DNA of 64,000 bases. Origin: Natrinema caseinilyticum (lineage in GTDB: Archaea > Halobacteriota > Halobacteria > Halobacteriales > Natrialbaceae). The DNA lies in contig NZ_CP100445.1 of the NCBI RefSeq assembly GCF_024227435.1, positions 930,001 to 994,000 on the forward strand. Direction: 5' to 3'. Numbering within the stretch: position 1 is the stretch's first letter; the number at the start of each line of letters is the position of its first letter. The translations under genes were made by a program, and so were the position numbers. The notes beneath the pieces are model-generated. The model had not been told where the DNA came from. It saw nothing but the letters and a program-made list of their open reading frames with translations, and ran no database searches. Positions 2,645 to 33,354 of this stretch are shown piece after piece.

Positions 2645-2652
2645 TTTGTAAT
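2645..2652 (-). promoter_or_regulatory. Island promoter motif, variant ATTACAAA
   Basis: Read on the minus strand, ATTACAAA followed by GGGC begins 34 bases before the ATG at 2618, the place expected for a TATA box of a leaderless haloarchaeal gene. It differs by one base from the ATAACAAA word found before other genes of the island. Confidence 0.5.
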
Positions 2653-2815
2653 AGTATCACTACGCGGATGAGACGGCAGCGCGCTCCGTTCACGGCCCGA
2701 ACGGACACGAGTACGTGATGCAAACCGTCGGCGAAGAAACGGACGCCGAACGGATCGAGAGGGTAAACGGCGCCTGAACGTCGTGTCGGCGAGGCCGTGA
2801 GGCGGACGACGGCGG

Positions 2816-2823
2816 ATAACAAT
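2816..2823 (+). promoter_or_regulatory. Island promoter motif, variant ATAACAAT
   Basis: ATAACAAT begins 41 bases before the ATG of the GT4 gene at 2857. One base differs from the consensus word and the spacing is slightly longer than in most other copies, so this is one of the weaker members of the set. Confidence 0.4.
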
Positions 2824-2856
2824 ACCCTTCCGGGCCGTTCCCTCCCGTACCACGAG

Positions 2857-3843
2857 ATGCACGTCCTCACGCTCACGACGAACGTCGATGCCCCCTTCAT
2901 GACCCAGCAGATGGAAGCGCTCGAGGACCGCGGCGTCGACTTTTCGACGGTCTCCATCTCCGGCAACGCCGATGCCGAAACGTCACGGTCGCCGGCGGAT
3001 TACATACGGACCGTCCCCGAGGTCCTCCGGGAAGCGGGAAACGGCTACGATCTGATACACGCACACTACGGACTGACGGCGCCGATGGCGCTCGCACAGG
3101 TCCGCAAACCGGTCGTTCTCTCGCTGTGGGGCTCGGACGTACACGGCCCCGTCGCACCGATCAGCCGCGCGTCAGCACCGTTCTGTGACGAGGTCGTCGT
3201 CATGTCTCGGGAGATGCGCGAGGTTCTCGGCCGCGAGTGTACGGTGATCCCCGACGGCGTCGATCTCGAGAAGTTCCGGCCGGAGCCACAGGACCGTGCC
3301 GCGAGTAACGTCGGCTGGGACGACGCGAACGGATACGACGTTCTCTTTCCCTACTCGCCCGCACGGCAGGTGAAGAACTATCCGCGGGCCGAACGCGTCG
3401 TGACGGTCGTCGACAACCTCCTCGAGCGGCCGGTGCGGCTTCGAACGGTTTCCGGCGTCGAGCACGACGCCGTCTCCGATTACATGAACGCTGCCGACGC
3501 CCTCATCTTGACCTCCCACAGCGAAGGATCACCGAACTCGGTAAAGGAGGCCCTGGCCTGCAACCTCCCCGTCGTCGCCGTCGACGTCGGCGACGTCCGG
3601 GAGCGACTGTCGGGCGTCGAACCCTCGCGCGTCGCCGAAAGCGACGACGAACTGATTCGGGGCCTGCTGGAGGTCCTCGAGCGCGGGGAGCGATCGAACG
3701 GTCGCGAGGCCGCCCGAGAGGTGAGCATCGATCGGACGGCCGAGCGGATGCTCGAGGTGTACGAGCGGGTCGCGGGAACGGTGGTCGAAACCGCGGATCG
3801 CGGTGACGAGCTAACCGTCCAGGGAATCGCACGACTCGAGTAG
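2857..3843 (+). CDS. Family 4 (group 1) glycosyltransferase
   Basis: 328 residues from the ATG at 2857. The open frame begins 20 codons earlier, but those residues precede the normal first beta strand MHVLTLTT. GT4 features include HAHYGLTAPMA near residue 70, LWGSDVHGP near 90, and the donor-binding E-x7-E motif within SEGSPNSVKEAL near 230, followed by a NLPVVAVDVGDV strand. The enzyme is GT-B fold, retaining and cytoplasmic, and adds a hexose-type unit to a lipid-linked glycan. It is divergent from the DUF354 gene and convergent with the SDR epimerase, within the polysaccharide island. The precise sugar is unknown. Confidence 0.9.
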   Translation: MHVLTLTTNVDAPFMTQQMEALEDRGVDFSTVSISGNADAETSRSPADYIRTVPEVLREAGNGYDLIHAHYGLTAPMALAQVRKPVVLSLWGSDVHGPVAPISRASAPFCDEVVVMSREMREVLGRECTVIPDGVDLEKFRPEPQDRAASNVGWDDANGYDVLFPYSPARQVKNYPRAERVVTVVDNLLERPVRLRTVSGVEHDAVSDYMNAADALILTSHSEGSPNSVKEALACNLPVVAVDVGDVRERLSGVEPSRVAESDDELIRGLLEVLERGERSNGREAAREVSIDRTAERMLEVYERVAGTVVETADRGDELTVQGIARLE

Positions 3844-6961: not shown

Positions 6962-6969
6962 TTTGTTAT
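6962..6969 (-). promoter_or_regulatory. Island promoter motif ATAACAAA
   Basis: A perfect ATAACAAA, followed by GCCC, begins 35 bases before the ATG of the Gfo/Idh gene on the minus strand. No other TATA-like element is visible in this GC-rich interval, so the motif is the best candidate for the core promoter. Confidence 0.6.
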
Positions 6970-7115
6970 CATCGCCGTACCCCTCGTCCCCCAGGAGTAG
7001 TACCTGCATTCGGGCGACCGACATCAGTCCCAGCGTCCGAGCGACGGATACCAGTCCCAGCATTCGGCGACGGGTACCACCGACCGGCGGCCCCCGTCAC
7101 CGCCGTCTCGACGCG

Positions 7116-8060
7116 TCAGCTCCAGCTCGCCGTCGCGCGCTCTCCCGCCGTCGGCGGCTCCGTGATTCGACCGGCGACCCCGGCCATCGTCTCGACGGTG
7201 AGGTCCGTCTCGGTCCGTCTGCGCTCGAGGTGCGACAGGATCGCGCGCATTCGCCGATCGTCCCGCTGGTGAGTCAGGTTGTTCGGATGAAGCCACATGT
7301 GAAAGAGACCGTCGGTCCGGGCCGCCTCGTCGATTCCGCGGCGTGCGAGGACGACCATCGGATCCTCCCAGATCGACTCCGCGACCGTCCGCGCCGCCCC
7401 TTCGAATCCGAAGAGGAACATCGAGGCCGGAACGTTGACGAGCCCGTACTCGTCGACGGTCGGGGCGACCAGCATCGACCGATCCCGAATCGCGGAGTCG
7501 AACACGCCACGAACGCCGTCGCGGGTCGGCGATGCACCCCGATACGCTGTAATCCCGTATTCGGCCAGCACGTCGCGGTGGCCGATGTCGTTGCGCGGAT
7601 AGATGAACGAGTCGATCGACCGGTCCCACTCGGCCGCGAGTTCGCCACAGCGCTCGAGTTCTGCGACGGCGAGTTCTCGATCCGTCTCCGGTCGCCCGAA
7701 CAGGACGTGGGAGAACGAGTGGCTTGCCAACTCGTGATCGGCGTCGGACTCGAGGACGCCGCGGACAAGGTCCCTCCCGAACCGGAGGTCCTCGCGATCA
7801 GCCCAGTCGGTTCGTTCGCGATCGAACCAGCCGTCCGGGGCCGGATACGCCGCGTGGCCGCCATCGCAGTCCTCGAGCATGAGATGACCGACGACGGCCC
7901 AGGTGGCCGGCACGTCGAACTCCTCGAGTAATTCCAGCATGGATTTCCAGCCCCGGCGGCCGGATTCCACCCGTTCGATCGGCGGTTCGGGGAGATCGTG
8001 AAATCCCCACCCGAGTTCGGCATCGAGCGAGATTACGACGCTTCCCACGGATTCCACCAC
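7116..8060 (-). CDS. Polysaccharide deacetylase (NodB-like)
   Basis: 314 residues from a GTG at 8060 (a second GTG follows directly at 8057). NodB-fold elements include the metal-Asp strand SLDAELGWG near residue 12, FDVPATWAVVGHL near 50, the His pair in ASHSFSHVLF near 115, and YPRNDIGHRDVL near 150. Enzymes of this fold remove N- or O-acetyl groups from polysaccharides. No signal peptide is present, so a cytoplasmic, lipid-linked substrate is more likely than mature capsule. An ATG at 8077 lies at the leaderless position relative to the promoter motif but is out of frame and opens only a short reading frame. The true start among the GTG codons is therefore uncertain. Confidence 0.83.
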   Translation of the reverse strand: MVESVGSVVISLDAELGWGFHDLPEPPIERVESGRRGWKSMLELLEEFDVPATWAVVGHLMLEDCDGGHAAYPAPDGWFDRERTDWADREDLRFGRDLVRGVLESDADHELASHSFSHVLFGRPETDRELAVAELERCGELAAEWDRSIDSFIYPRNDIGHRDVLAEYGITAYRGASPTRDGVRGVFDSAIRDRSMLVAPTVDEYGLVNVPASMFLFGFEGAARTVAESIWEDPMVVLARRGIDEAARTDGLFHMWLHPNNLTHQRDDRRMRAILSHLERRRTETDLTVETMAGVAGRITEPPTAGERATASWS

Positions 8061-8102: not shown

Positions 8103-8110
8103 TTTGTTAT
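8103..8110 (-). promoter_or_regulatory. Island promoter motif ATAACAAA
   Basis: A perfect ATAACAAA followed by GCCAC, 50 bases before the GTG start of the deacetylase and 33 bases before an out-of-frame ATG at 8077. It is one of two divergent copies in the 256-bp region between the deacetylase and the phosphatase-superfamily gene. Confidence 0.6.
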
Positions 8111-8251
8111 GGAGGACCTGTCGAAACTCCGACGGGACGTCGCGAGCCGTCCGATCCGCTTCCGGAAAGGACGGACGTGAGCGGGGCTGGTCGGGGAATT
8201 AACGGGTCCCAACAGGTCCGTCTCGGGTCGATCCGAGGGTGAAATCTCTCT

Positions 8252-8259
8252 ATAACAAA
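8252..8259 (+). promoter_or_regulatory. Island promoter motif ATAACAAA
   Basis: A perfect ATAACAAA followed by GCGCTC, 65 bases before the ATG at 8317. It is the divergent partner of the copy at 8103-8110. Transcription would be expected to begin near 8280, giving a short leader before the phosphatase-superfamily gene. Confidence 0.6.
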
Positions 8260-8316: not shown

Positions 8317-9909
8317 ATGAGCGGATATCAAACCTCCTCCGAGCGAGCGTTCGTGCTCGGACTCGACGGTGTGCCGTGGAGACTTATCGAACGATGGAGC
8401 AGCGAGGGCGAGCTTCCCGCCTTCGCCCGATTGCGTGAGGAGGGGGCCGCCGGCCCGCTGGATAGTACTCGCCCGCCGACGACGCCGCTGGCGTGGCCGT
8501 CGATCGCGACGGGAGTCTGGCCGGATAAACACGGAATCTACGGCTTTCAGAACCTCTCTTCGGAATACAGCCACGAAATGTACACCAGTCAAGATTTCGC
8601 CCAGCCCGCCCTCTGGGACCAACTCGGGCCCGCACACGTCGGGAACGTGCCGATGACCTATCCGGCCCACGAGATAGACGGAACCATGGTCACGGGGATG
8701 ATAACGCCCTCGACCGACCGAGAGTACACGCAGCCGCCGGATCTGCGAGACGAAATCGATTCGCGCATCCCGAACTACGAGATCAGCCTCGACTACCCCG
8801 AGTACGCCGACCGATTGGACGACTTCCAGGTCGCCGTCGACGATATGCTCGCGAAGCGCCGCACCCTGATGCGCATCCAAATGGACCGCGCCGGGGCGGA
8901 CTGGCAGTTGTTCTTTTTCGTCTTCACTGCGCCCGACCGGTTCCAGCACCTCGTCTGGGACATGGACAAACTGCTGGCCCACTACAAGCAACTCGACGAC
9001 ATTCTCGCCGAAGTCATCGAATACACCGACGATCACGATGCAGACCTCTACGTCGTCTCGGATCACGGATTCGGGCCGATCGATGCGCTCGTCTACGTCA
9101 ATCGGATTCTCGAGCGGGAAGGCTACCTGGTCCGGCGAGACGACGACGGCACTCGCGGGGCGCTCGCGAGCCTCGGAATCTCCCGGGACGCCATCACGGG
9201 CGCGCTCAACCGGGTCGGGATCACCGAAGAGGCGCTCGTCCAGTCGCTCCCCCGACGTCTCGTCGACTCCGTCGCCGAGCAGATTCCCGGCGATCACGCC
9301 CTCTACGACGTCGACTTCGACCAGACCGTCGCGTTCGTCCACGACACGGGCAACTGCTACATCAACGACACGGACCGGTTCGACCGCGGCGTCGTCTCGC
9401 CGAGCGAGGTCCCGACTGTCAAGGCGGAAATCAAGGACGCGCTCGAGTCGGCGACCGGTGCAAACGGCGAGACGCTCCTCGAGGTGTTCGACGGCGACGA
9501 CCTGTTCCCGACGGACGACGGGTCGCCGGATCTGGTCGTCGGCGGTCGAGGGTCGTTCGAGTCCCGGAGTGCGGTTTCGGATCAGGTACTCGGCGATACG
9601 GGGACCTACGATGCGAGCCACCGCAGCGAAGGGATCGTCCTCTGTCGCGGCCCCTCGATCGAATCCGACGCGACGTTGCACGGCGCTCGCGTGGTCGACG
9701 TCGCCCCGACGCTGCTCCACGGGATCGGCGAACCGGTACCCGAAAACACGGACGGCCGGGTACTGTTCGACGCTTTCGCGAAAGACGCACAGCCGGCGGA
9801 AACGAAAGTGGAGTGGACGACGGTTTCACAGACCGAGAGCGATGCCGAAGTCGACGACGACTTCGACGACGTCGAGGACCGCCTGAAAGGACTCGGCTAC
9901 ATGGAGTGA
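8317..9909 (+). CDS. Alkaline-phosphatase-superfamily phosphodiesterase/phosphotransferase (first paralogue)
   Basis: 530 residues from the ATG at 8317. The frame is open from 8293, but only via TTG codons. Metal and nucleophile regions of the AP superfamily are visible: FVLGLDGVPWRLI at the N terminus, PLAWPSIATGVWPDKHG near residue 55 (Thr as likely nucleophile), YVVSDHGFGPID near 245, and the late His in YDASHRSEG near 435. There is no signal peptide, so it is predicted cytoplasmic. Nucleotide-pyrophosphatase/phosphodiesterase relatives hydrolyse or transfer phosphate esters. In a glycan locus it may act on nucleotide sugars or polyprenyl-linked phosphates (inference). A clear paralogue lies at 33380. 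Confidence 0.85.
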   Translation: MSGYQTSSERAFVLGLDGVPWRLIERWSSEGELPAFARLREEGAAGPLDSTRPPTTPLAWPSIATGVWPDKHGIYGFQNLSSEYSHEMYTSQDFAQPALWDQLGPAHVGNVPMTYPAHEIDGTMVTGMITPSTDREYTQPPDLRDEIDSRIPNYEISLDYPEYADRLDDFQVAVDDMLAKRRTLMRIQMDRAGADWQLFFFVFTAPDRFQHLVWDMDKLLAHYKQLDDILAEVIEYTDDHDADLYVVSDHGFGPIDALVYVNRILEREGYLVRRDDDGTRGALASLGISRDAITGALNRVGITEEALVQSLPRRLVDSVAEQIPGDHALYDVDFDQTVAFVHDTGNCYINDTDRFDRGVVSPSEVPTVKAEIKDALESATGANGETLLEVFDGDDLFPTDDGSPDLVVGGRGSFESRSAVSDQVLGDTGTYDASHRSEGIVLCRGPSIESDATLHGARVVDVAPTLLHGIGEPVPENTDGRVLFDAFAKDAQPAETKVEWTTVSQTESDAEVDDDFDDVEDRLKGLGYME

Positions 9910-10014: not shown

Positions 10015-11412
10015 TCAGGATTGCACTCGAGGGAGCGAGACGGTTATCCTGTTTCCGGTTTCGGACCGGTCGAACGCGATGTGGCCGTCCGAGAGGTCCA
10101 CGGCCCAGTAGACGAGCCACAACCCCAGCCCGGACGTGTGGTACACGTCGTCCATCTCCCAATCCCCCGTCAGGACGCGAAACTCGACTTCCGGTATCGG
10201 CGGACAGCTATCCTGAATTTCGACGTCGATCGTCTCCGGATTGCGACGAATCGTAACGGACAGTTCCGGGAGACCGTCCGGTTGGTGCTGGATCGCGTTC
10301 TCGAGGAGTTCGGAGAGGGCATCCTGGATCTCGGAGACCGTACAGGCGACCGCCGATTCGGGACCCGTCCGTTCGATCGTCACGTCGGGGTACCGGTCCA
10401 GGGTCGTCTCGATCGCCCTGGATGCGACCGCGACGAGGTCGCTCGACTCCGGGACCGGCCGGTCGCTGAGCAACTCGATGATTTCTCGTTGCTTCGCGGT
10501 GGTATCGAGGAGTTCCTCCCCTTGCCGACGGATGGTCTCAGCACGTCGGTGAAACGGGTCGTCGGCTTCGTCGGCGATGCACTCGGCGTTGCCGAGAATA
10601 ACGGCCAGATCGTTTCGTAAATTGTGTCGAAGGAAGTTGTCCATGACCGTCAGTTGCCGTTCCCGTCGCTGTCGGTCCGTAATGTCCTTGCTGAACCCGA
10701 CGATTCGAACGACCTCGCCGTCTTCGAAAAGCGGGTCCGCTCGCACCCAGACCCACCGCTTGTAGTCCGTTTCGGGATCGACGCGATACTCGAGGTCGAC
10801 CGACTCACCCGCCGACGCGCGGGCCATGGCCTCGCGAACCGTCTCCGCATCGTCGGGATGGACGAGGTCGAGGAAGCTTCGCGGATTCGCCTCGAGCGAC
10901 TCGACCGACTGTCCGAAGACGTCTTCGTAGGCGGGATTGACGAAGAGCACGTCGGTCCAGTCGTGATTGAACATCCACAGGACGTCGCCGACCGTACCGG
11001 CGATCGTCCGCAGTCGGCTCTGAGCGTCCCGTCGTTCTCGCTCCGCGATAACCTGCTGCGTGATGTCCCTGGAACTGACGACGTATCCGTCCAGGGCGTC
11101 GTTCGGAGGGTTCGTAAACCGGCTCTCGAGCCACACCCACTCGTCGTTTGGCGTGAGGTGCCGATAGCGAACCGTCGACGAGGACCGGGCGACCTCGCTT
11201 ATCTGGCCGAAGCGATCCGCGACCACATACCTGTCGTCCGGATGGATGTATTCGATCGCGGATTCGTCGATCAACTGATCCGGCTCGAAGCCGAGGATTG
11301 ACGCGCTCGCCTCGTTTACATACACGTACGTACCCGCTTCGTCGACGATGGCGAGTTTATCCTGCGCATACTCGAGCAAGACGGTGCCCAAATCGCCGAT
11401 TTTCGGGTCCAT
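10015..11412 (-). CDS. PAS-domain sensor histidine kinase
   Basis: 465 residues from the ATG at 11412; an upstream TTG start is less likely. Two PAS domains lie at about residues 10-125 and 135-255 (the first around YVNEASASILGFE, the second around FVNPAYEDVFG), each ending in a PAC-like stretch. The phospho-acceptor box is LRHNLRNDL near 280. The HATPase domain has its N box at ENAIQHQPDG near 385 and its G box at SGLGLWLVYWAVD near 435. No membrane segment is present, so it is a soluble sensor. No response regulator lies next to it. It may monitor redox or energy state to control the island, but its target is unknown. Confidence 0.9.
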   Translation of the reverse strand: MDPKIGDLGTVLLEYAQDKLAIVDEAGTYVYVNEASASILGFEPDQLIDESAIEYIHPDDRYVVADRFGQISEVARSSSTVRYRHLTPNDEWVWLESRFTNPPNDALDGYVVSSRDITQQVIAERERRDAQSRLRTIAGTVGDVLWMFNHDWTDVLFVNPAYEDVFGQSVESLEANPRSFLDLVHPDDAETVREAMARASAGESVDLEYRVDPETDYKRWVWVRADPLFEDGEVVRIVGFSKDITDRQRRERQLTVMDNFLRHNLRNDLAVILGNAECIADEADDPFHRRAETIRRQGEELLDTTAKQREIIELLSDRPVPESSDLVAVASRAIETTLDRYPDVTIERTGPESAVACTVSEIQDALSELLENAIQHQPDGLPELSVTIRRNPETIDVEIQDSCPPIPEVEFRVLTGDWEMDDVYHTSGLGLWLVYWAVDLSDGHIAFDRSETGNRITVSLPRVQS

Positions 11413-11631
11413 CGAGATAGTCTGATACAATTTCGAGACTGACTATGAAAAACGTACTGCTGTTACAGACTGCGGCGGGCGAGACGCGCACGGACGCGTC
11501 GTTCAGTCTCCGCAGGTGTCCAGCGGAAGGCGGTCGCCGTCCGTCCCGAGGGCGACCGTCCCGGCCTCGCTCGAATCGGACCGCGACGAACGCTCGAGGA
11601 AGCGCGAACCCCCGAGTCGAGACCTGGGCGG

Positions 11632-12939
11632 TTAACGATCGGACCGGACGAGTCGAAGCCCCGCTTTCGCCGTCGTCCAGGCCGGATAGACGGTGTTGTA
11701 GACGGAGTTGGGGGCGTTTCTCGCTCCGGCTCGGAGTAGCCGATGGGTGAGCGGCGGGCCCGACGTGGAGATCAAGTCGTCCAGATCGGCGTCGTCGAGC
11801 CACTCGAAGAAGGACCGTTCGGCAGGCGTTGCGGGGTCGGTCTCGCGTGCGCGGTCACGAATATCGGCCCACATGTGGCGTTCGTCCTGTCCGAGGACCC
11901 AGTCGCCGCGCTCGAGTGACCGGCGGAGGTCGTCGTAATCCGCATCGGAGAACGGATACCCGTGGTCCGACGGCTCGAGCCCGGCCAGACGGAGGCCAAC
12001 GGCGGTCCGATAACACTTCTCACACTGGCCGCAGTTGCCGTCCATCCGGTCGTTGCAGGTCTGGAGTTGGAGCGTCGGGTCCTCGCTGCGGACGTAGTCC
12101 GCGATGAGGTCGAGGCGTTCTTGCCTGGTGAGTTCGTAGGCGTCGTGGTGGCACTCGGTTCCGGCCCACCTGACGCATTCGTCGACGTCGGGTCGGGACC
12201 CCCACTCGAGGTCGATCCCGTCCCAGTGGGTCGCGGCGACGTACAGATCCTCGATCCCGCGCGCGTAGGCCAACGGCGCACAGAGCCCGAGAAGCCCCAG
12301 CCCGTGACCGACGGAGCTGTACCAGCCGCCGTCGACGTAGCGCTTGTAGTGGGCGAGCAACATCGGATGATCGAGAAACGAAAGCATATTCGATTCGACG
12401 AACGCGGTCTCGAGGTCGTGGTCCTCGGCGAACCCGGAGACGCGCGTCCGGAGGGCATCCCACTTCCCGTCGTCGGCCGCGTCCGGCGTGATCGTCCACC
12501 CCCGAATGCTGATTACCGTCGGCGACTCCTCGCGGTGGCGAACGTACGAACTCGTCGAATCGACGCCGCCGGTAAACAACAGGCCGCTCTCGTCTCCCGG
12601 GTCGGGATCCGGGTCGATCGTCCGGCGCGCGTAGAGCGTCCCGCCCTCGAGGAAGTCGTGCATCTCGCACAGCGACGCCTCGACCTCCTCGAGGGCGCGC
12701 GCGAAGGTCCCATCGACCTCGTCGACGTAGACGTCGGCTCCGTTGGCCCACGCGACCGGACAGAGCTGTGCGAGGACGGGAATCACGAGGACGCCATCGG
12801 GGACGTCTTCGATCGGTACGTCGTACCGAGTTCGAAACGGTTCGTCAGTGATGAACCGCTCGAGGTCGGTCGAGGCGCGAACCGAACACTCGAGGGTCTC
12901 GCCGTCGGCGGTGAGTTGGTCGATGAGGATCGATGACAT
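11632..12939 (-). CDS. PP-loop ATPase-like protein with Cys cluster (glycan-locus type, function unknown)
   Basis: 435 residues. A PP-loop LLFTGGVDSTSSY has its core at 123-128, matching the SGGxDS pyrophosphate-binding loop of adenylating enzymes (asparagine synthetase, QueC, NAD synthetase). A Cys cluster C-x7-C-x2-C-x2-C follows at residues 295, 303, 306 and 309, as in QueC and in some PP-loop amidotransferases. The N-terminal 115 residues have no obvious relative. It could adenylate a carboxylate on a sugar (uronic acid amidation) using an ammonia or sulfur donor, by analogy with WbpG-type sugar amidotransferases. That is inference from fold and context. It is divergent from the GT-C-like membrane gene. 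Confidence 0.75.
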   Translation of the reverse strand: MSSILIDQLTADGETLECSVRASTDLERFITDEPFRTRYDVPIEDVPDGVLVIPVLAQLCPVAWANGADVYVDEVDGTFARALEEVEASLCEMHDFLEGGTLYARRTIDPDPDPGDESGLLFTGGVDSTSSYVRHREESPTVISIRGWTITPDAADDGKWDALRTRVSGFAEDHDLETAFVESNMLSFLDHPMLLAHYKRYVDGGWYSSVGHGLGLLGLCAPLAYARGIEDLYVAATHWDGIDLEWGSRPDVDECVRWAGTECHHDAYELTRQERLDLIADYVRSEDPTLQLQTCNDRMDGNCGQCEKCYRTAVGLRLAGLEPSDHGYPFSDADYDDLRRSLERGDWVLGQDERHMWADIRDRARETDPATPAERSFFEWLDDADLDDLISTSGPPLTHRLLRAGARNAPNSVYNTVYPAWTTAKAGLRLVRSDR

Positions 12940-13274: not shown

Positions 13275-13278
13275 ATGA
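13234..13278 (+). other. Possible leader reading frame (14 codons), coupled by ATGA overlap
   Basis: ATG at 13234 opens the peptide MRIETGRDGSGEST and stops at a TGA that overlaps the ATG of the membrane gene (ATGA). GGTGAG lies just before the overlap and could act as a ribosome-binding site. The position of the ATG relative to the ATAACAAA motif fits a leaderless start. It may be chance. Confidence 0.3.
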
Positions 13279-19142: not shown

Positions 19143-19150
19143 ATAACAAA
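19143..19150 (+). promoter_or_regulatory. Island promoter motif ATAACAAA
   Basis: A perfect ATAACAAA (followed by CAAATTG) beginning 33 bases before the ATG at 19176, directly downstream of an inverted repeat. Confidence 0.6.
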
Positions 19151-22629: not shown

Positions 22630-24453
22630 TCAGCCGAATACCGCATCGCGGCGGGACTCGAGGACGCTCTGTGAGGAGTAGATGTCGTCGATGAACGACG
22701 TCAGCGCGAAGAGACGGTAGACGGATACACGGTCGTGATCGGCCGTCGAATCGAGAAACGCGAGGAGTTCGTCGGTCGAAAGGACGTCGTCGACGGCCTC
22801 ACACTGGTCGACCTGGGTTCGAATGCAGTCGACCGTATCAGGTCGGAGCTGCGACCCCGTCTCGAGGCCGTTGATCGACTTGACGATGGGCCGAACCGTC
22901 TCGAACAATCGCGGATACCGCGAGAGGAGATCGTCGACGAACGCCGCCGCCTGGTGTCGAGTGGACGCGACGGGCACCCCGTAATCGGGGTGGGGTAACG
23001 CTGCGGCGGTGGGCTCCAGTTCCGTGAGGAACGATCGATAGAGGTTGTACCGTGCTTTCTGTCCGGGCGGGCAATTCATCGCGTACCGGAAGAAGTCGAT
23101 CGAGTAGAACGGGGTCGTACTCCAGAAGAAAAACCGGTTTCGATCCTCGCCTTCGAACAGGAAATTGACGCCCCGTTCGTAGACGAGAAAGTGGACGTAC
23201 GCCGCAGCGGGGTCCGTCTCGGGATACATGTCGAGTCGGTCGTGAACGCTCCGTCGGATCGAAGCCGGCGAGAGCCCGGTAATCCGGGCGACCTGCTCGA
23301 GCGAGAGAAAACAGTTCTCTTCGATGACGTAGTCGACGAGTTCCGATTCGTCAGCGATCGGCCTCGCCGGAGTCAGATCCGGGAGGACCTTGTCCCCGCC
23401 GTCGCCGGTGACGTAGGTGAGGCCGGCATCGTACTCCTCGCGAAGTTGGCGGAAGAACTCGAGAATGAACGAGGTCAAGAGTCCTATTTGACCGTTTTTC
23501 GTCTTGATTATCCGGTCCAGGTCGGACCCGTTCGGCGGTCCGACCTCGTATCGCCGCCACTGGATATCGAGTTCCGTTGCCAATTCGCGGGCGATGTCCA
23601 CATCGGACGGCGGCACGAATTCGTCCGAGGACATCGTTGCCGCGGTCGTCGACAGTCCCTCCGCGTCGAAACCGGCCAGCACGGCCCGAGAGTCGAGGCC
23701 GCCGCTCAGCGAGATCACGTCGTGGCTGCCACATCCCGACCGCTGTCGACAGGCTCGTTCGAACCGGTCGACGAGTTCGGTGGCGTTTCGCGATCGGCTC
23801 CGGTCGGCGTGAGACGGCTCCTCGAAGTCGAATCGGTGCAGCGCCGTTTCGGTGACCGCCCCGCGATTCGGGTCCACGGTGAGTTTCGTCCCCGGCCGAA
23901 GTCGATTGGCTCCGTTCACGAGCGTCCGGTCGCCCAACGAGTAGCCAAAGAGCAGACACTGCGCGACGCCCATCGGATCGAACCCGTCGATCGGCGCCTC
24001 GTTGATGAGATACCGTAGCTCCCTCGAGAACAGAAACGCCGCTCCGTCGTGGAAGTAGTACGTCGGCAGCCGAGCGAGCGGGTCGTTGAGTAATCCGAGT
24101 CGGCCGGTGTCCTTGTCGACGGCGACGAGCAGGAACTCCCCGTCGGTCTCCAGGAGCCACTCGGTGAGGAACTCGTCGCCGTCCGGGGCGAGAACGCGCG
24201 TCGCGACCTCGAGTAGTTCTCGCTCGAGTGAGTCGGCGTCGCGATCGTAGATTCGGCCCTCGAAACAGACCCAGCAGTCCTCGTCCTCGAGGATACGAAT
24301 CGGGTACTCCGGGTAGGCCGTCGTTCCGATGGAACACGACGGCGAACCGAAGACGACGTCGGCCTCGTACCGGTCCGTGTGGACGAGCGGCTCGAGCGAG
24401 CCAGCGAACGACCGGTCCCCGGGAGACGTGGTTCTGCCAGAGATGCCAACCAT
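22630..24453 (-). CDS. Asparagine-synthase-like protein lacking the glutaminase cysteine
   Basis: 607 residues from the ATG at 24453. The open frame extends 50 codons upstream, but MVGISG aligns with the MCGI N terminus of class II glutamine amidotransferases, so this is the right start. The catalytic Cys at position 2 is Val, which should abolish glutamine hydrolysis. The N-terminal domain otherwise keeps its shape (CFEGRIYD near 63, DGEFLLVAVD near 104). The synthetase domain has the PP-loop SLSGGLDSRAV at 248-258 and the GDGGDK loop near 395. It may form amides with free ammonia or another amine on a glycan substrate, or have lost amidotransferase chemistry. Such proteins are common in exopolysaccharide loci. 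Confidence 0.82.
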   Translation of the reverse strand: MVGISGRTTSPGDRSFAGSLEPLVHTDRYEADVVFGSPSCSIGTTAYPEYPIRILEDEDCWVCFEGRIYDRDADSLERELLEVATRVLAPDGDEFLTEWLLETDGEFLLVAVDKDTGRLGLLNDPLARLPTYYFHDGAAFLFSRELRYLINEAPIDGFDPMGVAQCLLFGYSLGDRTLVNGANRLRPGTKLTVDPNRGAVTETALHRFDFEEPSHADRSRSRNATELVDRFERACRQRSGCGSHDVISLSGGLDSRAVLAGFDAEGLSTTAATMSSDEFVPPSDVDIARELATELDIQWRRYEVGPPNGSDLDRIIKTKNGQIGLLTSFILEFFRQLREEYDAGLTYVTGDGGDKVLPDLTPARPIADESELVDYVIEENCFLSLEQVARITGLSPASIRRSVHDRLDMYPETDPAAAYVHFLVYERGVNFLFEGEDRNRFFFWSTTPFYSIDFFRYAMNCPPGQKARYNLYRSFLTELEPTAAALPHPDYGVPVASTRHQAAAFVDDLLSRYPRLFETVRPIVKSINGLETGSQLRPDTVDCIRTQVDQCEAVDDVLSTDELLAFLDSTADHDRVSVYRLFALTSFIDDIYSSQSVLESRRDAVFG

Positions 24454-25137
24454 ATCAGTAGCAGTGTGAGTAACCCGCATTGTAATGTCGGCGTTTACCG
24501 AGGCCAGACGGAGGCTACCGTTTCGAAGCGTTTTTGCGAGACAGCCCACCGCAGCGGGTCGGATCGGATTCGACGGCAGCACGTTCCAAATTGCAACCGC
24601 CATCGCACAAACGCTCGAAACACAGCCGGATGGCAGAGGAATGGATACGAGGGTCGATCACATCGCGTCCGGTGTGAGGACAGTATCTGCGGTCGCTTCG
24701 GTCGCCGTGTGAGAAGGCTCCCGCGCCTGGAACAGCTGCTGGCACGCGACTGTCCCGGTACTGAATGACGGTCGTCGGGAGCCATTCGGAGGTATGGAAC
24801 CCGATAATAAAAACCCTTCTCAGGGTCCGGTCGTCGGCGTCGGCCAACAATCCGGACGAAACTGGCTGTGCTCACCGTCGCCGAGACGGTAGCGACAGTG
24901 TTCGGCGACCGTCCGACCGACCCGCCGTCGCACGCACGAGGGCGTGTACCCGCGATCGAACGATCGGGGGCTCGGGGACAGCTACCGCTACCGGCCGTCC
25001 CACGCAGATGGAATCGATTTGCGACGCCACTGCTACCCCACCCCACGTACCGTGGCGCGAGGCTGCTGGAGCGGTCGTCGTCGACCGAGAATGGACGGCA
25101 TCGGCGACGATGCGCGACGGTCGTCGTCGAAACAGGA
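24454..25137. other. Long intergenic region, no gene supported
   Basis: 684 bp. Open frames on both strands are Arg/Ser-rich and lack the acidic composition of real genes here. The only distinctive spot is an A/T run near 24805-24815 (AATAAAAACCC), which could be a promoter or a transcription stop. No tRNA-like fold or insertion-sequence end is seen. Confidence 0.5.
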
Positions 25138-25734
25138 TTATTCGATTCGGGACAGTTTGCCGTCGACGTTGCGTTCTCGCCGGTGGTTCGAAACGACGTG
25201 CGTGAGAGAGAGGAGGAGAAACGCAGTGATAACGGCCCCGGCGAGGCCGATCATCGGGGCGGCCGACACGAGGGGGACGCCGAGAAACGCCGCACCGATG
25301 AGGGCGGCACCGATCAGGCTAACTCCAGCGTACCATCGATCCCACCGGTCCTGTCGGTGAGTATCGGTGTCGAGGTACATCATCAACAGGTCGGCGTTGT
25401 CCGCGAGCGAGATCAGCCCGCGGTCCTGGTCGTATTCGACGATTCCGGCATCGTCCATTTTCGGCAGGTGGGTCTGATAGAGGGCGACGTAGACGCGCTT
25501 TCGTTGATCGGAACTGAGCGCGTTGACCTCGGTATCGTTCTCCCAGGCGGCTATCTGTTCGGCCAATTCCCCGAGAGTGACAGTTTCGTCCGCTTCCAGC
25601 AAGTACGCGAGGACTTCTCGACGACGGCGATTTTTTAAGAGTTCGAAAATAACATCTTTGGAGAGACGTTCGTCCTCGTCGGCATCGGTAACGGACGCGA
25701 TTTCGTCGGGGAGCGACGTATCGATAGAGGACAT
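25138..25734 (-). CDS. DUF7344-type winged-helix protein with two membrane segments
   Basis: 198 residues. A winged-helix domain at about 25-115 (KDVIFELLKNRRRREVLAY, then LGELAEQIAAWEND and YVALYQTHLPKMDDAGIV) has the haloarchaeal DUF7344 layout. Two adjacent hydrophobic helices follow at about 135-180, ending in a short basic tail. Proteins of this type are thought to be membrane-tethered DNA-binding regulators and often lie beside surface-glycan or archaellum loci. It sits between the asparagine-synthase-like gene and the TFB gene and may regulate the island. The DNA target is unknown. Confidence 0.78.
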   Translation of the reverse strand: MSSIDTSLPDEIASVTDADEDERLSKDVIFELLKNRRRREVLAYLLEADETVTLGELAEQIAAWENDTEVNALSSDQRKRVYVALYQTHLPKMDDAGIVEYDQDRGLISLADNADLLMMYLDTDTHRQDRWDRWYAGVSLIGAALIGAAFLGVPLVSAAPMIGLAGAVITAFLLLSLTHVVSNHRRERNVDGKLSRIE

Positions 25735-26478: not shown

Positions 26479-27438
26479 ATGACGCGGTCTATCATCGATC
26501 AACACAGCGGCGAATCACAGTCACAGGAGGTCGAGACTGGTCTGTGTCCCGACTGCGAGACCGACACGGTCGTCCACGATCCGGACCGCGGCGAACAGGT
26601 CTGTGAGGAATGCGGCCTCGTTCTCACTGAGGATCCCATCGATTACGGGCCGGAATGGCGTGCGTTCAACGCCCAGGAACACGACGAACTGTCGCGGGTC
26701 GGCGCCCCACTGACGCAGTCGATGCACGATCGCGGTCTGACGACGACCATCGACTGGCGCAACAAAGACGCCAACGGCCATTCGATGTCGGCCGACAAAC
26801 ACGGCCAGCTCCATCGGCTCCGCGTCTGGCAGGAGCGAATCCGAACGAAAAATGCGGGCGAACGAAACCTGAAGTACGCACTCTCCGAAATCGATCGCAT
26901 GGTGAGCGCGCTAGGCGTTCCGAAGCCGGTGAAGGAAACGGCGAGCGTTATCTACCGACAGGCGCTCGAGCAGGACCTCATTCGCGGTCGGTCGATCGAG
27001 GGCGTCGCGACCAGCGCACTCTACACGGCGTGTCGTAAAGAAGACATTCCCCGGAGTCTCGAGGAAGTAACGTCCGTTTCACGGGTCGACCAGCGGGAGA
27101 TCGGTCGGACCTATCGGTACATCGCAGATGAACTGGACATTAACCTGGAACCGACGAACCCCCGCCAGTTCGTTCCGCGATTCTGCTCCGAACTCGACGT
27201 CGACAAAGACGTAGAGACCAAAGCGATCGAGATCATCGACCGGACCACGGAACAGGGACTCCACTCGGGCAAGTCGCCGACCGGCTTTGCCGCCGCCGCA
27301 ATCTACGCCGCCGGACTCCTCTGTGACGAGACGATTCCGCAACGAGCCGTCGCCGACACCGCACAGACGACCGTCGTCACCGTCAGAAACCGGTACCGCG
27401 AGCAACTCGAGGCCATCGACCAGCAGCCGGCTACATGA
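26479..27438 (+). CDS. tfb: Transcription initiation factor IIB (TFB)
   Basis: 319 residues from the ATG at 26479, giving the normal TFB length; the frame is open another 93 codons upstream, but that part is not TFB. The N-terminal zinc ribbon has CPDC and CEEC near residues 22-45. The B-reader DYGPEWRAF follows near 58, then two cyclin-fold repeats (first around YALSEIDRMVSALGVP, second around RTTEQGLHSGKSPTGFAAAAIY). TFB recruits RNA polymerase to TBP-bound promoters and contacts the BRE through the second cyclin fold. Haloarchaea carry several TFBs with partly specialised promoter sets. This copy lies inside the polysaccharide island, between genes whose promoters carry ATAACAAA. Confidence 0.95.
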   Translation: MTRSIIDQHSGESQSQEVETGLCPDCETDTVVHDPDRGEQVCEECGLVLTEDPIDYGPEWRAFNAQEHDELSRVGAPLTQSMHDRGLTTTIDWRNKDANGHSMSADKHGQLHRLRVWQERIRTKNAGERNLKYALSEIDRMVSALGVPKPVKETASVIYRQALEQDLIRGRSIEGVATSALYTACRKEDIPRSLEEVTSVSRVDQREIGRTYRYIADELDINLEPTNPRQFVPRFCSELDVDKDVETKAIEIIDRTTEQGLHSGKSPTGFAAAAIYAAGLLCDETIPQRAVADTAQTTVVTVRNRYREQLEAIDQQPAT

Positions 27439-28072: not shown

Positions 28073-30052
28073 GTGACCGACGAACGTTCTCCGGAGCCAC
28101 ACGACGAGCAGCGAAGCACCTCTTCGGGCTCTATGGGATCGGAACCGATCGAGACAGAGACGGAGGAGCCACCGTCGAACGGCTCGAGAGCGGGCGATGC
28201 AGGGACGACGGGAGACGCGGCCGATGCGGGGACGGCGAGAGACGCGGACGAGGAATTTACCCTCGCCGACTTCCACGATGCCAGTCAGGAGGAGGGGCGA
28301 CCCGTCCTCACCGCCGCGGCAGTTTCCCGTGCGCTCGAGATCCCCCACGAAGAAGCCAGCGACCGGCTCGAGGCCCTCGCAGACGAGGGGTCCGTAGAGC
28401 GCCTCTCCGTTTCGACGGACCCGGTGGTCTGGTACCCGAGCGAGTTCGAGGATCTCACGGATCGCGAGCGGGTGGTCGTCTTTCCGAAGCGACGGGAGAT
28501 CGTCGTCGATCGGCCGGATCAGTTCACGCGAGCGCAGCTCTCGCAGTTCGCCCACCTCGCGGACGCGAACGGAGACCACGGGTATCGCTACGTGGTTCGA
28601 CCGGCCGACGTCTGGGGGACCCCCCACGACTCGTTCGACCAGCTGGCGCGGACGATGCGCCAGGCGCTCGGACAACGCTCCGAGGGGCTCGAAGACTGGG
28701 TCGAGAGTCAGTGGGATCGGGCCCACCAGTTCCGGCTCGTGACGCACGAGGATGGCTACACCGTACTCGAAGCCCAGAGCCCGGAGATCATGGGAAACGT
28801 CGCACGGCAGAAACTGGACGAGGAGCACGTCCACGCACCGATATCGGACACCGAGGACTGGGTTCGCGACGGATCCGAAGCCGCGATCAAGCGCATCCTC
28901 TACGAGGCGGGCTATCCGGTCCAGGACCACCGAGAGCTCGAATCGGGCGAGGAGCTGCCGATCGACCTTCAGATTCGGCTCCGCGACTATCAGCGGGCCT
29001 GGGTGGACCGCTTCGGCGAGGCCGGCGAGGGCGTCTTCGTCGGCCCGCCCGGCAGCGGGAAAACGATCGCCGCGATGGGCGCGATGGCCCACGTCGAAGG
29101 CGAGACGCTGGTGCTGGTGCCGAGTCGGGATCTCGCCCGGCAGTGGGCCGACGCGATCGTGGACTACACGTCGCTCGAGGCCGACCAGATCGGACAGTAC
29201 CACGGTGGACGCAAAGAGATTCGCCCGGTAACGATCGCCACCTACCAGATCGCTGGGATGGATCGTCACCGATCGCTGTTCGACGACCGAGAGTGGGGAC
29301 TGGTCGTCTTCGACGAGTGCCAACACGTCCCGTCGGACGTCTACCGGCGGAGCACGCACCTGCAGTCCACCCATCGACTCGGCCTGTCCGCGTCGCCGAT
29401 CAGGGAAGACGACCGCCAGACCGAAATCTTCACCCTGGTCGGTCCACCGATCGGCACCGACTGGGAGGCGCTGTTCGACGCGGGCTTCGTCGCCGAACCC
29501 GAACTCGAGATCCGGTACGTGCCGTGGGGCGACGACGAGCAGGCGAACGCCTACGGCTCCGCCGACGGCCGGGAGAAGTACCGGATCGCCGCGAAGAACC
29601 GGGGAAAGATCGACGAGGTTCGCTACCTGCTGTCCGCTCACCCCGACTCGAAGGCGCTCGTCTTCGTCGATTACTTGGCGCAGGGCCGGGACCTCTCCGA
29701 GGCGCTCGAGGTCCCCTTCCTCAGCGGCGAGACGCCCCACCACGAGCGTCGACGGCTGCTCGAGGAGTTTCGGCGCGACGAGCGCGACCTGCTGATCATC
29801 TCGCGGGTCGGCGACGAGGGGATCGACCTGCCGACGGCCGACCTCGCGATCGTCGCCTCGGGACTCGGCGGCTCTCGGCGACAGGGTACTCAACGCGCAG
29901 GTCGGACGATGCGCCCCGCTGGCGGGGCGCTCGTCTACGTCCTCGCGACGCGAGGGACCCGGGAAGAAGACTTCGCGCGGAAGCAGCTCCAGCATCTCGG
30001 GCGCAAGGGGATGACGATCCGCGAGCAAGCGGTCGAGCGGGACCCGGACTAA
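28073..30052 (+). CDS. XPB/Rad25-like superfamily 2 DNA helicase
   Basis: 659 residues from a GTG. An acidic, disordered N terminus (1-65) precedes a winged-helix-like region (VLTAAAVSRALEI near 80) and a damage-recognition-like section. The motor has Walker A GPPGSGKTIAAM near 323, Walker B DECQH near 415, the SAS motif in GLSASP near 440 and motif VI QRAGRTMRP near 610. This pattern is the XPB group rather than RecQ or Hel308. In archaea such helicases work in DNA repair with the nuclease Bax1, but no Bax1 gene is next to it; a HerA-like ATPase is. It sits inside a glycan island, suggesting insertion or exchange. Confidence 0.85.
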   Translation: MTDERSPEPHDEQRSTSSGSMGSEPIETETEEPPSNGSRAGDAGTTGDAADAGTARDADEEFTLADFHDASQEEGRPVLTAAAVSRALEIPHEEASDRLEALADEGSVERLSVSTDPVVWYPSEFEDLTDRERVVVFPKRREIVVDRPDQFTRAQLSQFAHLADANGDHGYRYVVRPADVWGTPHDSFDQLARTMRQALGQRSEGLEDWVESQWDRAHQFRLVTHEDGYTVLEAQSPEIMGNVARQKLDEEHVHAPISDTEDWVRDGSEAAIKRILYEAGYPVQDHRELESGEELPIDLQIRLRDYQRAWVDRFGEAGEGVFVGPPGSGKTIAAMGAMAHVEGETLVLVPSRDLARQWADAIVDYTSLEADQIGQYHGGRKEIRPVTIATYQIAGMDRHRSLFDDREWGLVVFDECQHVPSDVYRRSTHLQSTHRLGLSASPIREDDRQTEIFTLVGPPIGTDWEALFDAGFVAEPELEIRYVPWGDDEQANAYGSADGREKYRIAAKNRGKIDEVRYLLSAHPDSKALVFVDYLAQGRDLSEALEVPFLSGETPHHERRRLLEEFRRDERDLLIISRVGDEGIDLPTADLAIVASGLGGSRRQGTQRAGRTMRPAGGALVYVLATRGTREEDFARKQLQHLGRKGMTIREQAVERDPD

Positions 30053-30178
30053 TCCGGCGAGAGCGTTCGACGGGACCGGTGCCCGTCGAGGACCGATCGC
30101 CGAACCGAGGCCAATATTCAAGGTCGCGCATTCGGACTGTACAGATAGTATGAACGAACCGCGTTCGGTCGAGGTGGT

Positions 30179-31954
30179 GTGGCGGTGAGCGACGAACCGA
30201 CGCAGCGCCAGATTCTGGTGGGTGAAACGTCCGACGGCGCGAACCTGAAACTGCCGGTCGTCGAACTGCTCACCGGCCGTGGGTTCGTCACCGGGAAATC
30301 CGGCTCCGGGAAATCGAACACCGCGTCGGTCATCGCAGAGGAGTTACTCGAGGCGGGGTATCCGCTGCTCATCGTCGACACGGACGGGGAGTACTACGGG
30401 CTGAAAGAGGAGTACGAGATGCTCCACGCGGGTGCCGACGAGGAGTGTGACATCCAGATCGGGCCCGAACACGCAGAACAGATGGCCACGATCGCACTCG
30501 AAGAGAACGTGCCGGTGATCCTGGACGTCTCGGGGTATCTCGACGAAGACGTGGCGGACGAACTACTCCGCGAGGTGGCCCGTCAGCTGTTCGTCAAGGA
30601 GAAGAAGCTCAAGAAGCCGTTCCTGCTGGTCGTCGAGGAGGTTCACGAATACATTCCGGAAGGCGGCGGCGTCGGCGAGACGGGGAACCTGCTGATCAAG
30701 ATCAGCAAGCGCGGGCGCAAACACGGGCTCGGAATTCTCGGAATCAGCCAGCGGCCGGCCGACGTCAAGAAAGACTTCATCACCCAGGCGAACTGGCTCG
30801 TCTGGCACCGGCTGACCTGGGACAACGACACCAAGGTCGTCGGACGAATCATCGACACCGAGTACTCGGAACTGGTGGCCGATCTCGACGACGGGCAGGC
30901 GTTCGTCCAGACCGACTGGACGGAGGTCGACGTCCGCAAGGTCCAGTTCCGCCGGAAGCGGACCTTCGACGCCGGCGCGACACCCGGTCTCGAGGACTTC
31001 GAACGACCGGAACTCAAATCCGTCTCGGACACCCTGGTCGGCGACCTCCAGGAGATTTCCGAGCGCAAGGACCGGGAACAGGACCGGATTCACCAACTCG
31101 AGAACGAACTCGAGAAGAAAGAGAAACGAATCGAGACCCTCGAAGACGAGTTATCCTCGGCGCGGGACGTCTCGAGTGCGGCCAAGCAGATGGCGGACGC
31201 CCTGCAGAACACGGAAACGGTCCAGTCGCAACTGCCCGGCGGCGGCGAGGACCTCCGCCGTCTACACGAGGAGATCGCCGAACTCGAGGCCGAACGCGAC
31301 GAGTTGCGGGAGAAACTCGACACCAGCGACGACCGCATCGATCGTCTCGAGGACGAACTCGCCGCTCGGACGTCGAAACTGAAACGAATCCGGTCCGAGA
31401 ACCACCAGTTGCGCAACGTCGTCCGCGAACTCGAGCGCGAGCGGCCGTACGCGGCGAACGAGGAAAACGGGGCGAGCGACGACGGCGAGGCGAGCGACGG
31501 GGACGACTCGTCGTCGATCGTCCAGGCCGGCGGCGAAGCCCACGAGTACGGGTACACGCCGGTTGACGGAGACGCGGACGCGGACTCGAACGCGTCGTCG
31601 GACGGCGACGAGGCGACAGCCACGGAAGACGACGCCGCGTTCGTCGTCGCCGACGAGGAACGCGAGCTCGCGGACCTGCTCGAGGTGTCTTCGGTCCGGA
31701 ATCGCGTGGAGCGCGCGTGCGAGGGCTCTCAATGTTCGATCGAGACCGCCGAGGAGATCCTGGCCGTGTTCGCACGCGAGGGGGCGCTCGCGACCGAACC
31801 GGTCGCCGATCGGGTCGATCGGTCGGCGGTCGCGGTACAGAGTCTCCTGTCGGAACTCCGGACGGAAGAACTGCTAGAGCGAACCGGCGAGCGGACGTAC
31901 TCGCTGAGCGATGCGGTCCGAACCGCGCTGGCCGAGACTGCGCCGGTCGAGTGA
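30179..31954 (+). CDS. HerA/DUF87-like ATPase with coiled coil and C-terminal winged helix
   Basis: 591 residues from GTG at 30179 (GTG at 30185 is the alternative). ATPase motifs: Walker A GKSGSGKSNTA near residue 40, Walker B LLVVEEVHEYIP near 150, sensor GISQRPADV near 190. Residues about 280-425 form a long heptad-rich coiled coil (QLENELEKKEKRIETLEDEL and following). An acidic linker and a C-terminal winged-helix segment (EEILAVFAREGALATEPVADR) end the protein. HerA-type motors translocate DNA as hexamers. It follows the XPB-like helicase by 126 bases on the same strand, so the pair may act together on DNA. A 13-codon frame (ATG at 30150) ends in a TGA overlapping the second GTG. Confidence 0.85.
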   Translation: MAVSDEPTQRQILVGETSDGANLKLPVVELLTGRGFVTGKSGSGKSNTASVIAEELLEAGYPLLIVDTDGEYYGLKEEYEMLHAGADEECDIQIGPEHAEQMATIALEENVPVILDVSGYLDEDVADELLREVARQLFVKEKKLKKPFLLVVEEVHEYIPEGGGVGETGNLLIKISKRGRKHGLGILGISQRPADVKKDFITQANWLVWHRLTWDNDTKVVGRIIDTEYSELVADLDDGQAFVQTDWTEVDVRKVQFRRKRTFDAGATPGLEDFERPELKSVSDTLVGDLQEISERKDREQDRIHQLENELEKKEKRIETLEDELSSARDVSSAAKQMADALQNTETVQSQLPGGGEDLRRLHEEIAELEAERDELREKLDTSDDRIDRLEDELAARTSKLKRIRSENHQLRNVVRELERERPYAANEENGASDDGEASDGDDSSSIVQAGGEAHEYGYTPVDGDADADSNASSDGDEATATEDDAAFVVADEERELADLLEVSSVRNRVERACEGSQCSIETAEEILAVFAREGALATEPVADRVDRSAVAVQSLLSELRTEELLERTGERTYSLSDAVRTALAETAPVE

Positions 31955-31995
31955 GGACCGTCCGTCTCGAAATTCCTCGCGGAGTCGACCCGGAC

Positions 31996-33120
31996 TCAGC
32001 GTTGCAGTCGATCGCCGACGGCCTCGATCGCCGACGCATCGATCCCCTGGTGGACCGGGAGGACGACCAGTTCTTTCGAGAGCTGGTTCGAGGTCTCGTA
32101 CGCGTCGTTTTCGTGGACCGATCGGCGGAGTATCGGCCAGTTGTGAGCCCCGACGACGCCGCAGTTCTCGAGTTCCGTCAGGAACGCCTGCGGTTCGTCG
32201 GCTCGGACCGGAAATTCGTACGGACAGATCCCCTCCGGAAGCCGCTCGTAGAAGACCGTGACGTCGTCACGGGTGGCAAGGACGTGGCGCCAGGCTCGGT
32301 AGTTTTCTCGTCGGGACGTTCGGATCGCCGCGGGATCTGCGGCGTCGGTGATGGCCTTCGAAAGCCTCGACATGGGGTCTTTGGTCGCCTCGTAGCGCCC
32401 CTCTGGATCGACGCTCGACGGGTCACCGCCGCCGTTCGAGAGGAACGCCTCCACCGATCGGTGGAGCGACCGACTCGTCCCGAGAACCGTTTCGGCGACC
32501 GAGGTGGCCACGTACCGGCAGTCGGTTGCGACGACTCGATCCGACGGGCCGGCGAGCGACGACGGTTCGAACGCCTCGCGGACCGATTCGGTTGTGCGGT
32601 ACAGGATGGCCCCGTCGGGAACCGGGAGGAGTTTTCGCAGCGTCGTTATCCCGATATCACCGGTCGTCCCGAGTAACGTCCCGTCGGCGACGCTGAGCGG
32701 CGCGTGTGCGTTATCGTCGATGTGATAGCAGTCGTACTCGTCGGCCAACGTCGAGATCGTCTCGAGGCCGGGCTGGGGAAAGCCGAAGTAGTTGACCGAC
32801 ATGACGGCGATGGTGTCGGTATCCATTCGAGATTCGAGGTCGGCGACGTCGGGTGCGAGCGTCTCCTCGATCGCGTAGAATCGGGACTCGAGGTCGAGGT
32901 CGTGGAACGGTTCGACGACCGCCGGAGAGAGATAAGCCGGAACGAGAACGTTCTGGCCCGGCTCGACGAGAGTAGCGAGACCGTCTCGGAGCGCGACTTT
33001 CCCGGCGCCGTAGTACGTGTAGTCGACAGTCGGGGCGTGTTCGTCGACGAACGAGTCGATTCCGACGTCCCCCGACCGCGTGAGGGTGGCATCGAACACG
33101 GAGGGGGTAGCACTGATCAT
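31996..33120 (-). CDS. DegT/DnrJ/EryC1/StrS-type aminotransferase
   Basis: 374 residues. PLP-fold features include the glycine turn YYGAGKVALRDGL near residue 37, the Asp-containing strand YHIDDNAHAPLS near 128 and the probable PLP lysine in TTLRKLLPVPDGA near 175. Fold type I enzymes of this family transaminate keto-sugar nucleotides to amino sugars, but some relatives act as dehydratases, depending on the Lys. It is convergent with the HerA-like gene and divergent from the second phosphatase-superfamily gene. The likely role is making an amino sugar for the island polymer; a FemAB/GNAT acyltransferase nearby could then acylate it. Confidence 0.83.
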   Translation of the reverse strand: MISATPSVFDATLTRSGDVGIDSFVDEHAPTVDYTYYGAGKVALRDGLATLVEPGQNVLVPAYLSPAVVEPFHDLDLESRFYAIEETLAPDVADLESRMDTDTIAVMSVNYFGFPQPGLETISTLADEYDCYHIDDNAHAPLSVADGTLLGTTGDIGITTLRKLLPVPDGAILYRTTESVREAFEPSSLAGPSDRVVATDCRYVATSVAETVLGTSRSLHRSVEAFLSNGGGDPSSVDPEGRYEATKDPMSRLSKAITDAADPAAIRTSRRENYRAWRHVLATRDDVTVFYERLPEGICPYEFPVRADEPQAFLTELENCGVVGAHNWPILRRSVHENDAYETSNQLSKELVVLPVHQGIDASAIEAVGDRLQR

Positions 33121-33346
33121 ACGTGTGATTGTAATCCGGTGATGGGTGCGGTGATCGTCGTCGTAACGGCAGCGGCCACGGCGATCATCGACATAATAGA
33201 GAAACGACCGTGCCCTTAGTGATACAGGCAGTACCGTTCGTGGTACCTTCGCAATCGATACTTACAGTCGCCGGCAAAATCGCCGCCTGAGCCACAATAT
33301 CGACCTTACAGCTCGCAGCACGAGCCTATAGACGGCCAGCACTCGC

Positions 33347-33354
33347 ATAACAAA
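33347..33354 (+). promoter_or_regulatory. Island promoter motif ATAACAAA
   Basis: A perfect ATAACAAA followed by GCACGG, beginning 33 bases before the ATG at 33380. It is the last copy I see on the right side of the island. Confidence 0.6.

Follow-up and report, generated by a model that had tools for sequence, protein, structure and literature searches.

A putative non-canonical core promoter class at surface-glycan genes of Natrinema caseinilyticum and other haloarchaea

Introduction

Haloarchaea carry many copies of the TATA-binding protein (TBP) and of transcription factor B (TFB, TFIIB), and whether these multiple factors select promoter classes has been a question for two decades. We describe here a short bipartite element, (G/A)HA-N8-ATAACAAA, found at promoters of a surface-glycan island of Natrinema caseinilyticum. 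The stretch of DNA analyzed (hereafter "the window") comprises 64,000 nucleotides of contig NZ_CP100445.1 (C1:930001-994000 of the 4.77-Mb genome); negative coordinates lie to its left. Judging from its sequence, conservation and position, the element probably constitutes a dedicated, non-canonical core promoter class that defines a surface-glycan regulon. A strictly conserved non-TATA element that is tied to a single functional regulon and occurs on a Haloferax mediterranei plasmid would make the question of promoter classes directly testable. The element also predicts a surface-glycan regulon in dozens of genomes and ties its regulation to horizontally moving glycan islands. No description of it was found in open-access papers.

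The published core elements of haloarchaeal promoters are TTWT, CGAAA and WW (PMC4983044), which represent the TATA box, the TFB recognition element (BRE) and a WW at -10 (W, A or T), respectively. The element shares the register of this canonical promoter, with a box approximately 26-33 bases before the putative start, a W at -11 and leaderless or short-leader transcripts. It differs from it in the lack of CGAAA or TTWT (96 of 96 promoters), in an invariant C within the box, and in a second fixed triplet at -44 to -42. The bop promoter of Halobacterium likewise has a non-canonical sequence at the TATA position, no BRE, a short fixed upstream element and a small regulon; however, the sequences of the two elements differ, and the regulon described here is much larger and wider, covering surface glycans in many families. 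The proposal that TBP-TFB pairs select promoter classes in Halobacterium (PMC2121645) shares the idea of classes set by general factors, and the island encodes a divergent TFB. By contrast, the published motif differences among TFBs are subtle changes within the BRE (PMC3542263), whereas in the present case the box differs throughout and no TFB accompanies it consistently. By analogy, the element resembles the promoters of bacterial alternative sigma factors in being a bipartite promoter of fixed spacing that would define a regulon, although the machinery is archaeal, the spacing is eight bases and there is no homology.

Clustering and conservation of the element

Six exact copies of ATAACAAA are present in the window (6962 and 8103 on the minus strand; 8252, 13196, 19143 and 33347 on the plus strand), precisely as listed in the original prediction, against 0.15 expected from dinucleotide shuffles, none of 100 of which reached six. 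The whole genome contains 34 copies, compared with 37 of the word read backwards, and thus shows no excess; nevertheless, nine of the 34 fall within 40.5 kb (C1:922896-963347), which corresponds to the glycan island (Poisson P ~2e-12, or ~2.5e-10 after a generous correction for the choice of window). The P values of this study are indicative only, because genomes of the same order and related loci are not independent. Three of the nine clustered copies, at -7104, -6678 and -4428, lie just to the left of the window and had been overlooked, as had the GTA-like half eight bases upstream of the box, the conservation across genomes and the variant boxes that are themselves conserved. The remainder of the window was said to be free of the word, and zero exact copies were indeed found to the right of 33354.

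The home genome was compared with twelve further genomes of the genus that harbor the island (13 in total). Orthologous promoters keep ATAACAAA across the genus while most of the flanking and upstream sequence drifts, and nearly all other island genes have no exact ATAACAAA at their promoters. The conserved form is bipartite, (G/A)HA-N8-ATAACAAA, with GTA as the best triplet; in the home-genome island, an A stands nine bases ahead of every exact box, mostly within GTA. The variant boxes ATTACAAA, ATAGTAAA, ATCACTAA and ATACTAAA are conserved in the same frame at further island promoters. Imperfect boxes mostly carry the full GTA, whereas perfect boxes tolerate GAA, ACA or CCA, as would be expected if the two halves add up. 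Scoring of 38 ortholog groups for the bipartite form gave 14 with a high mean score, against 0-4 for decoys and 7-11 for shifted or near-identical words; one of the 14 (the gene at -11770, without a consistent box) is probably a false positive. Since sites were located by exact words, the true degeneracy of the element is only partly captured. The two one-base variants noted at the outset fared differently: ATTACAAA at 2645 (minus strand) is a genuine conserved box, whereas ATAACAAT at 2816 (plus strand) has drifted from the exact box, which 6 of 10 genomes retain at this promoter.

Position of the element within the promoter

A logo was built from 100 de-duplicated sites, unselected for upstream sequence, with positions counted relative to the box. 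Upstream, A occupies -9 in 96 sites and G never occurs at -10; downstream, T is found at +9 in a single site, +23 is A or T in 77, and an initiator-like pair follows, with a pyrimidine at +33 in 75 and a purine at +34 in 83. The nearest usable start codon lies at least 33 bases away in 86 of 91 cases (18 of them at 33-37) and closer in only five, giving a sharp edge at 33. Generic promoters of the home genome show A+T peaks at -30 to -26 and at -11/-10, in the same register. Because of the W at -11, the pyrimidine-purine (YR) initiator and the sharp lower limit of approximately 33 bases to the start codon, the box is placed at -33 to -26, the slot of a TATA box; the triplet would then lie at approximately -44 to -42, and transcription would start at alignment position +34.

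The claim that four copies stand 33-35 bases ahead of a start codon was borne out (35 bases at 6962, 33 at 19143 and 33347, 34 at 2645). So was the view that the word is not the usual TATA box: after masking of the box, TTWT, CGAAA or any other five-base A/T run at -40 to -20 was found in 0/96 motif promoters, as compared with a frequency of 0.19 for TTWT in control promoters. Enrichment over ordinary promoters was also checked, and the word occurred at -45 to -18 in 0/111 control promoters of the same genome.

Distribution among haloarchaea

GTA-N8-ATAACAAAG has matches in 121 of 243 genomes of the order. Matches outnumber those of a reversed control by 136 to 1 in the Halorussus/Haladaptatus family (f17, whose members include Halorussus and Halomicrococcus); for the home family (f1), the counts are 95 and 6. 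Genes downstream of the element in f17 include those for DUF7344 proteins, DUF1616 proteins, a flippase, GT2 glycosyltransferases and PQQ-repeat proteins, and nine clusters from several families contain 3-9 boxes apiece, next to relatives of the same set of genes. In 79 named haloarchaeal loci (1.65 Mb) that encode relatives of the gene at 13275 of the window, 199 copies of ATAACAAA were counted, whereas its 56 anagrams have a median count of 7; the highest anagram count, 46, belongs to a word that shares a seven-base overlap with ATAACAAA. Coding sequence holds only 15 of the 199 copies, although 78% of this DNA is coding. A second, distant type of cluster in the same species lacks the word (e.g., L302 as compared with L253 in Natrialba taiwanensis).

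The element is also present in Haloprofundus, Halorussus, Halorientalis, Halomarina and Haloferax mediterranei, in many cases on plasmids. Glycan genes make up much of the 52-kb Haloprofundus plasmid pMHR1-4 (L330), which carries seven boxes and its own TFB gene; the stretch of Haloferax mediterranei ATCC 33500 examined has six boxes, in the glycan cluster of plasmid pHME505, and the island is located on large Haloferax plasmids (L327, L331). The glycan regulon thus appears to be mobile, since the boxed island sits on plasmids of both genera. The suggestion that the word may mark an unusual core element of a regulon of glycan units is supported by its conservation at orthologous promoters in the 13 genus genomes, its concentration in glycan clusters of other families, its apparent position at the site of a TATA box and the lack of canonical BRE/TATA words in the motif promoters.

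Proposed mechanism and candidate readers

In the reading that we favor, the (G/A)HA triplet and the ATAACAAA box, on one face of the helix, would together form the core promoter that gives specificity, the box taking the place of the TATA box with no recognizable BRE or TATA word. Transcription would begin approximately 33 bases downstream of the box, at YR, after the W at -11. A dedicated factor would read the element and then recruit, or form, a TBP/TFB complex, and one regulator would switch 10 to 16 scattered glycan transcription units jointly. This factor could be an alternative TFB or an activator of the Bat kind known from bop, and its targets may also include several regulatory genes with the element in their promoters, namely PadR-type genes in Natrialbaceae and DUF7344 genes in the Halorussus/Haladaptatus family.

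Several points weigh against such a promoter class. The start approximately 33 bases past the box is derived from alignment and start-codon distances; ATAACAAA is A/T at seven of eight positions, and might be an ordinary weak TATA box beneath an overlapping operator; comparison of nine motif-bearing clusters revealed no regulator gene common to all; and the P values, which treat related loci as independent, overstate certainty. It is also tempting to speculate, although the chances seem somewhat below even, that the system is an archaeal counterpart of a sigma regulon, in which a bipartite core promoter stands in for BRE and TATA, depends on a dedicated initiation factor for its recognition, and travels with surface-glycan islands among chromosomes and plasmids of different haloarchaeal families.

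A candidate for the reader in Natrialbaceae is the TFB paralogue encoded in the island (26479-27438, plus strand; identified by Pfam and alignment), which has a changed BRE-recognition helix. That it acts as a sigma-like specificity factor, reading the box directly with a TBP, is a tentative proposal that we hold to be rather unlikely. This protein alone among the home-genome TFBs read has the changed helix (PQRAVADTAQTTVVTVRNRY instead of TQREVADVAQVTEVTIRNRY), while the rest of it is a standard TFB. It lies in the same cluster in 20 Natrialbaceae loci, including plasmid pHTUR04; boxes are present in every one of these loci, and the changed helix scarcely varies among them. Box promoters without a BRE would suit such a factor, the Haloprofundus glycan plasmid combines a TFB gene with seven boxes, and selection of promoter classes by TBP-TFB pairs has a precedent in the Halobacterium proposal (PMC2121645). 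However, the TFB of the Haloprofundus plasmid has a canonical helix, all TFBs read from the motif-bearing genome G017 are canonical and none is encoded near its cluster, and no TFB is annotated in the six-box Haloferax mediterranei stretch. Furthermore, the upstream GTA falls outside any BRE position, and the gene of the island TFB itself has no box. The island TFB was rejected as a universal reader, because the genomes read from outside Natrialbaceae contained no close orthologue.

In our view, a bop-style activator is about equally likely as the reader: a Bat-like (HTH_10) or other activator would contact the GTA half as well as some of the box, bringing TBP and TFB to a non-canonical TATA sequence. 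The bop promoter offers a parallel: its TATA position reads GTTACA, a BRE is absent and an activator sequence lies upstream (PMC2121645). The two halves of the element are one helical turn apart, and BAT/HTH_10 proteins are encoded near the cluster in the window (44505-47717), in G017 and G045, and on pHTUR04. HTH_10 proteins are, however, abundant in haloarchaea, and the regions examined in other members of the genus contain no counterpart of the 1070-aa PAS/GAF/BAT/HTH_10 protein at 44505-47717, next to the island. That the 8-mer is invariant throughout also points to the box itself being read.

Slightly less probable than either of these is an operator, whose conservation would be that of a repressor site: a PadR- or DUF7344-type winged-helix repressor would cover a weak ordinary TATA box and block TBP. 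Binding across BRE/TATA is documented for certain archaeal repressors (PMC6085418). Each of the four PadR-like 90-aa genes that were found next to boxes in the home genome has the box in its own promoter, as autoregulation predicts, and in the Halorussus/Haladaptatus family a DUF7344 gene regularly lies downstream of GTAAATGGTGAATAACAAAG or a one-base variant. In the window, a candidate regulator of this kind is encoded at 25138-25734 (minus strand): a DUF7344 protein, winged-helix-like and with two membrane helices at its C-terminus, whose homologue in that family has the element in its promoter. On the contrary, the logo shows no dyad symmetry in (G/A)HA-N8-ATAACAAA, and the element is thus not palindromic, unlike the site of a dimeric repressor. 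None of the 96 motif promoters has another BRE or TATA, so the basal machinery would itself depend on this invariant 8-mer. PadR-type genes occur in 239 of 243 genomes whether or not the motif is present, and the boxes of PadR genes differ at +9, which is often T there; the motif-bearing f6 genomes have no close DUF7344 homologues. For these reasons, neither a PadR-type protein nor DUF7344 (window 25138) was retained as sole reader. A close homologue of DUF7344 does track the motif within some genera (four of five g52 genomes have both and G157 has neither; G213 and G211 behave likewise), and DUF7344 is linked to the motif in most, but not all, lineages. The PadR-like 90-aa paralogues (L021, L023, L026 and L010:12939-13214) have T at +9 in three of four cases, unlike the glycan genes, and a small gene resembling them on pHTUR04 is annotated "PhiH1 repressor." A tandem winged-helix protein of G017 was a further candidate taken into account.

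Finally, it is highly improbable that the word arose by chance or from base composition, or that it represents a repeat of mobile elements or of coding sequence, for although ATAACAAA is short and A-rich and its genome-wide count is on a par with that of the reversed control, such origins were ruled out by the anagram, decoy, reversed-control, intergenic/coding-share and ortholog tests.

Elements and genes of the island

Gene starts were taken from a simple codon-usage caller and domains were assigned by Pfam; the surface-glycan island thus delimited measures approximately 50 kb. Its enzymes comprise GT2, GT4, DUF354, epimerase, MocA, deacetylase-like, asparagine-synthase-like, FemAB-like, phosphohexomutase and GlmS proteins as well as two type I phosphodiesterases, and its regulators comprise PadR, HTH_20, three DUF7344-type winged-helix proteins (each with two C-terminal hydrophobic stretches) and the TFB at 26479-27438.

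Among the exact elements, GTA-N8-ATAACAAA at 6962-6980 (minus strand; box 6962-6969) precedes a GFO/IDH/MocA oxidoreductase gene that starts at 6934, and is exact in 12 of 13 genomes. ACA-N8-ATAACAAA at 8103-8121 (minus strand; box 8103-8110), ahead of a polysaccharide-deacetylase-like gene (7116-8060; 12 of 12 genomes), is divergent with GAA-N8-ATAACAAA at 8241-8259 (plus strand; box 8252-8259), ahead of a type I phosphodiesterase gene (8317-9909). The latter box is exact in 13 of 15 cases, the two others being distant homologues. On the plus strand, GTA-N8-ATAACAAA at 13185-13203 (box 13196-13203; 11 of 12) precedes a gene for a protein with multiple membrane spans (13275-15077; relatives annotated DUF6541), and the same form at 19132-19150 places its box 33 bases ahead of a GT4 glycosyltransferase gene (19176-20336; 3 of 3). 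CCA-N8-ATAACAAA at 33336-33354 (plus strand; 11 of 12) also has its box 33 bases ahead of the start, here of a type I phosphodiesterase gene (33380-35008) with a FemAB-like gene downstream. To the left of the window, the copy at -7104 belongs to a PadR-like gene (exact in 12 of 12 genomes), that at -6678 to a DUF1616 gene (10 of 12), and that at -4428 to a series that begins with a hexapeptide acyltransferase and continues with DegT, MocA, UDP-sugar dehydrogenase and GT2 genes (12 of 12).

The variant GTA-N8-ATTACAAA at 2645-2663 (minus strand) lies with its box 34 bases ahead of a DUF354 glycosyltransferase-like gene (start 2618) and is at -34 in most genus genomes. The drifted box ATAACAAT (2816-2823, plus strand) stands 41 bases ahead of a GT4 gene (2857-3843). 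ATTACAAT at 24479-24486 (minus strand) is 33 bases ahead of an asparagine-synthase-like gene (22630-24453) and at -33 in 4 of 5 genomes. GTA-N8-ATCACTAA at 33216-33234 (minus strand), ahead of a DegT-like gene (31996-33120) and divergent with 33336-33354, keeps ATCACTAA in 11 of 12 genomes. Outside the window, GTA-N8-ATAGTAAA is kept in 12 of 12 genomes at the DUF7344 gene at -5238, and GTA-N8-ATACTAAA is found at -34 of the epimerase gene at -13331 in 8 of 9; ATAGTAAG occurs near -33 of the phosphohexomutase gene in about half of the genomes.

Within the island, a pair of genes at 28133-31954, the first for an XPB-like helicase and the second for a HerA/coiled-coil ATPase-like protein, is conserved in the genus and has no box. 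Two related secreted, repeat-rich proteins with twin-arginine signals (17091-18902 and 20575-22341) flank a glycosyltransferase gene, and their paralogues vary among relatives. Between the histidine-kinase gene at 10015 and the gene at 11632 (window 11412-11632), G002, G004, G005 and G010 contain a large extra gene block, and in the extra block of G004, G005 and G007 a box lies exactly 35 bases ahead of a GNAT/FemAB-like gene.
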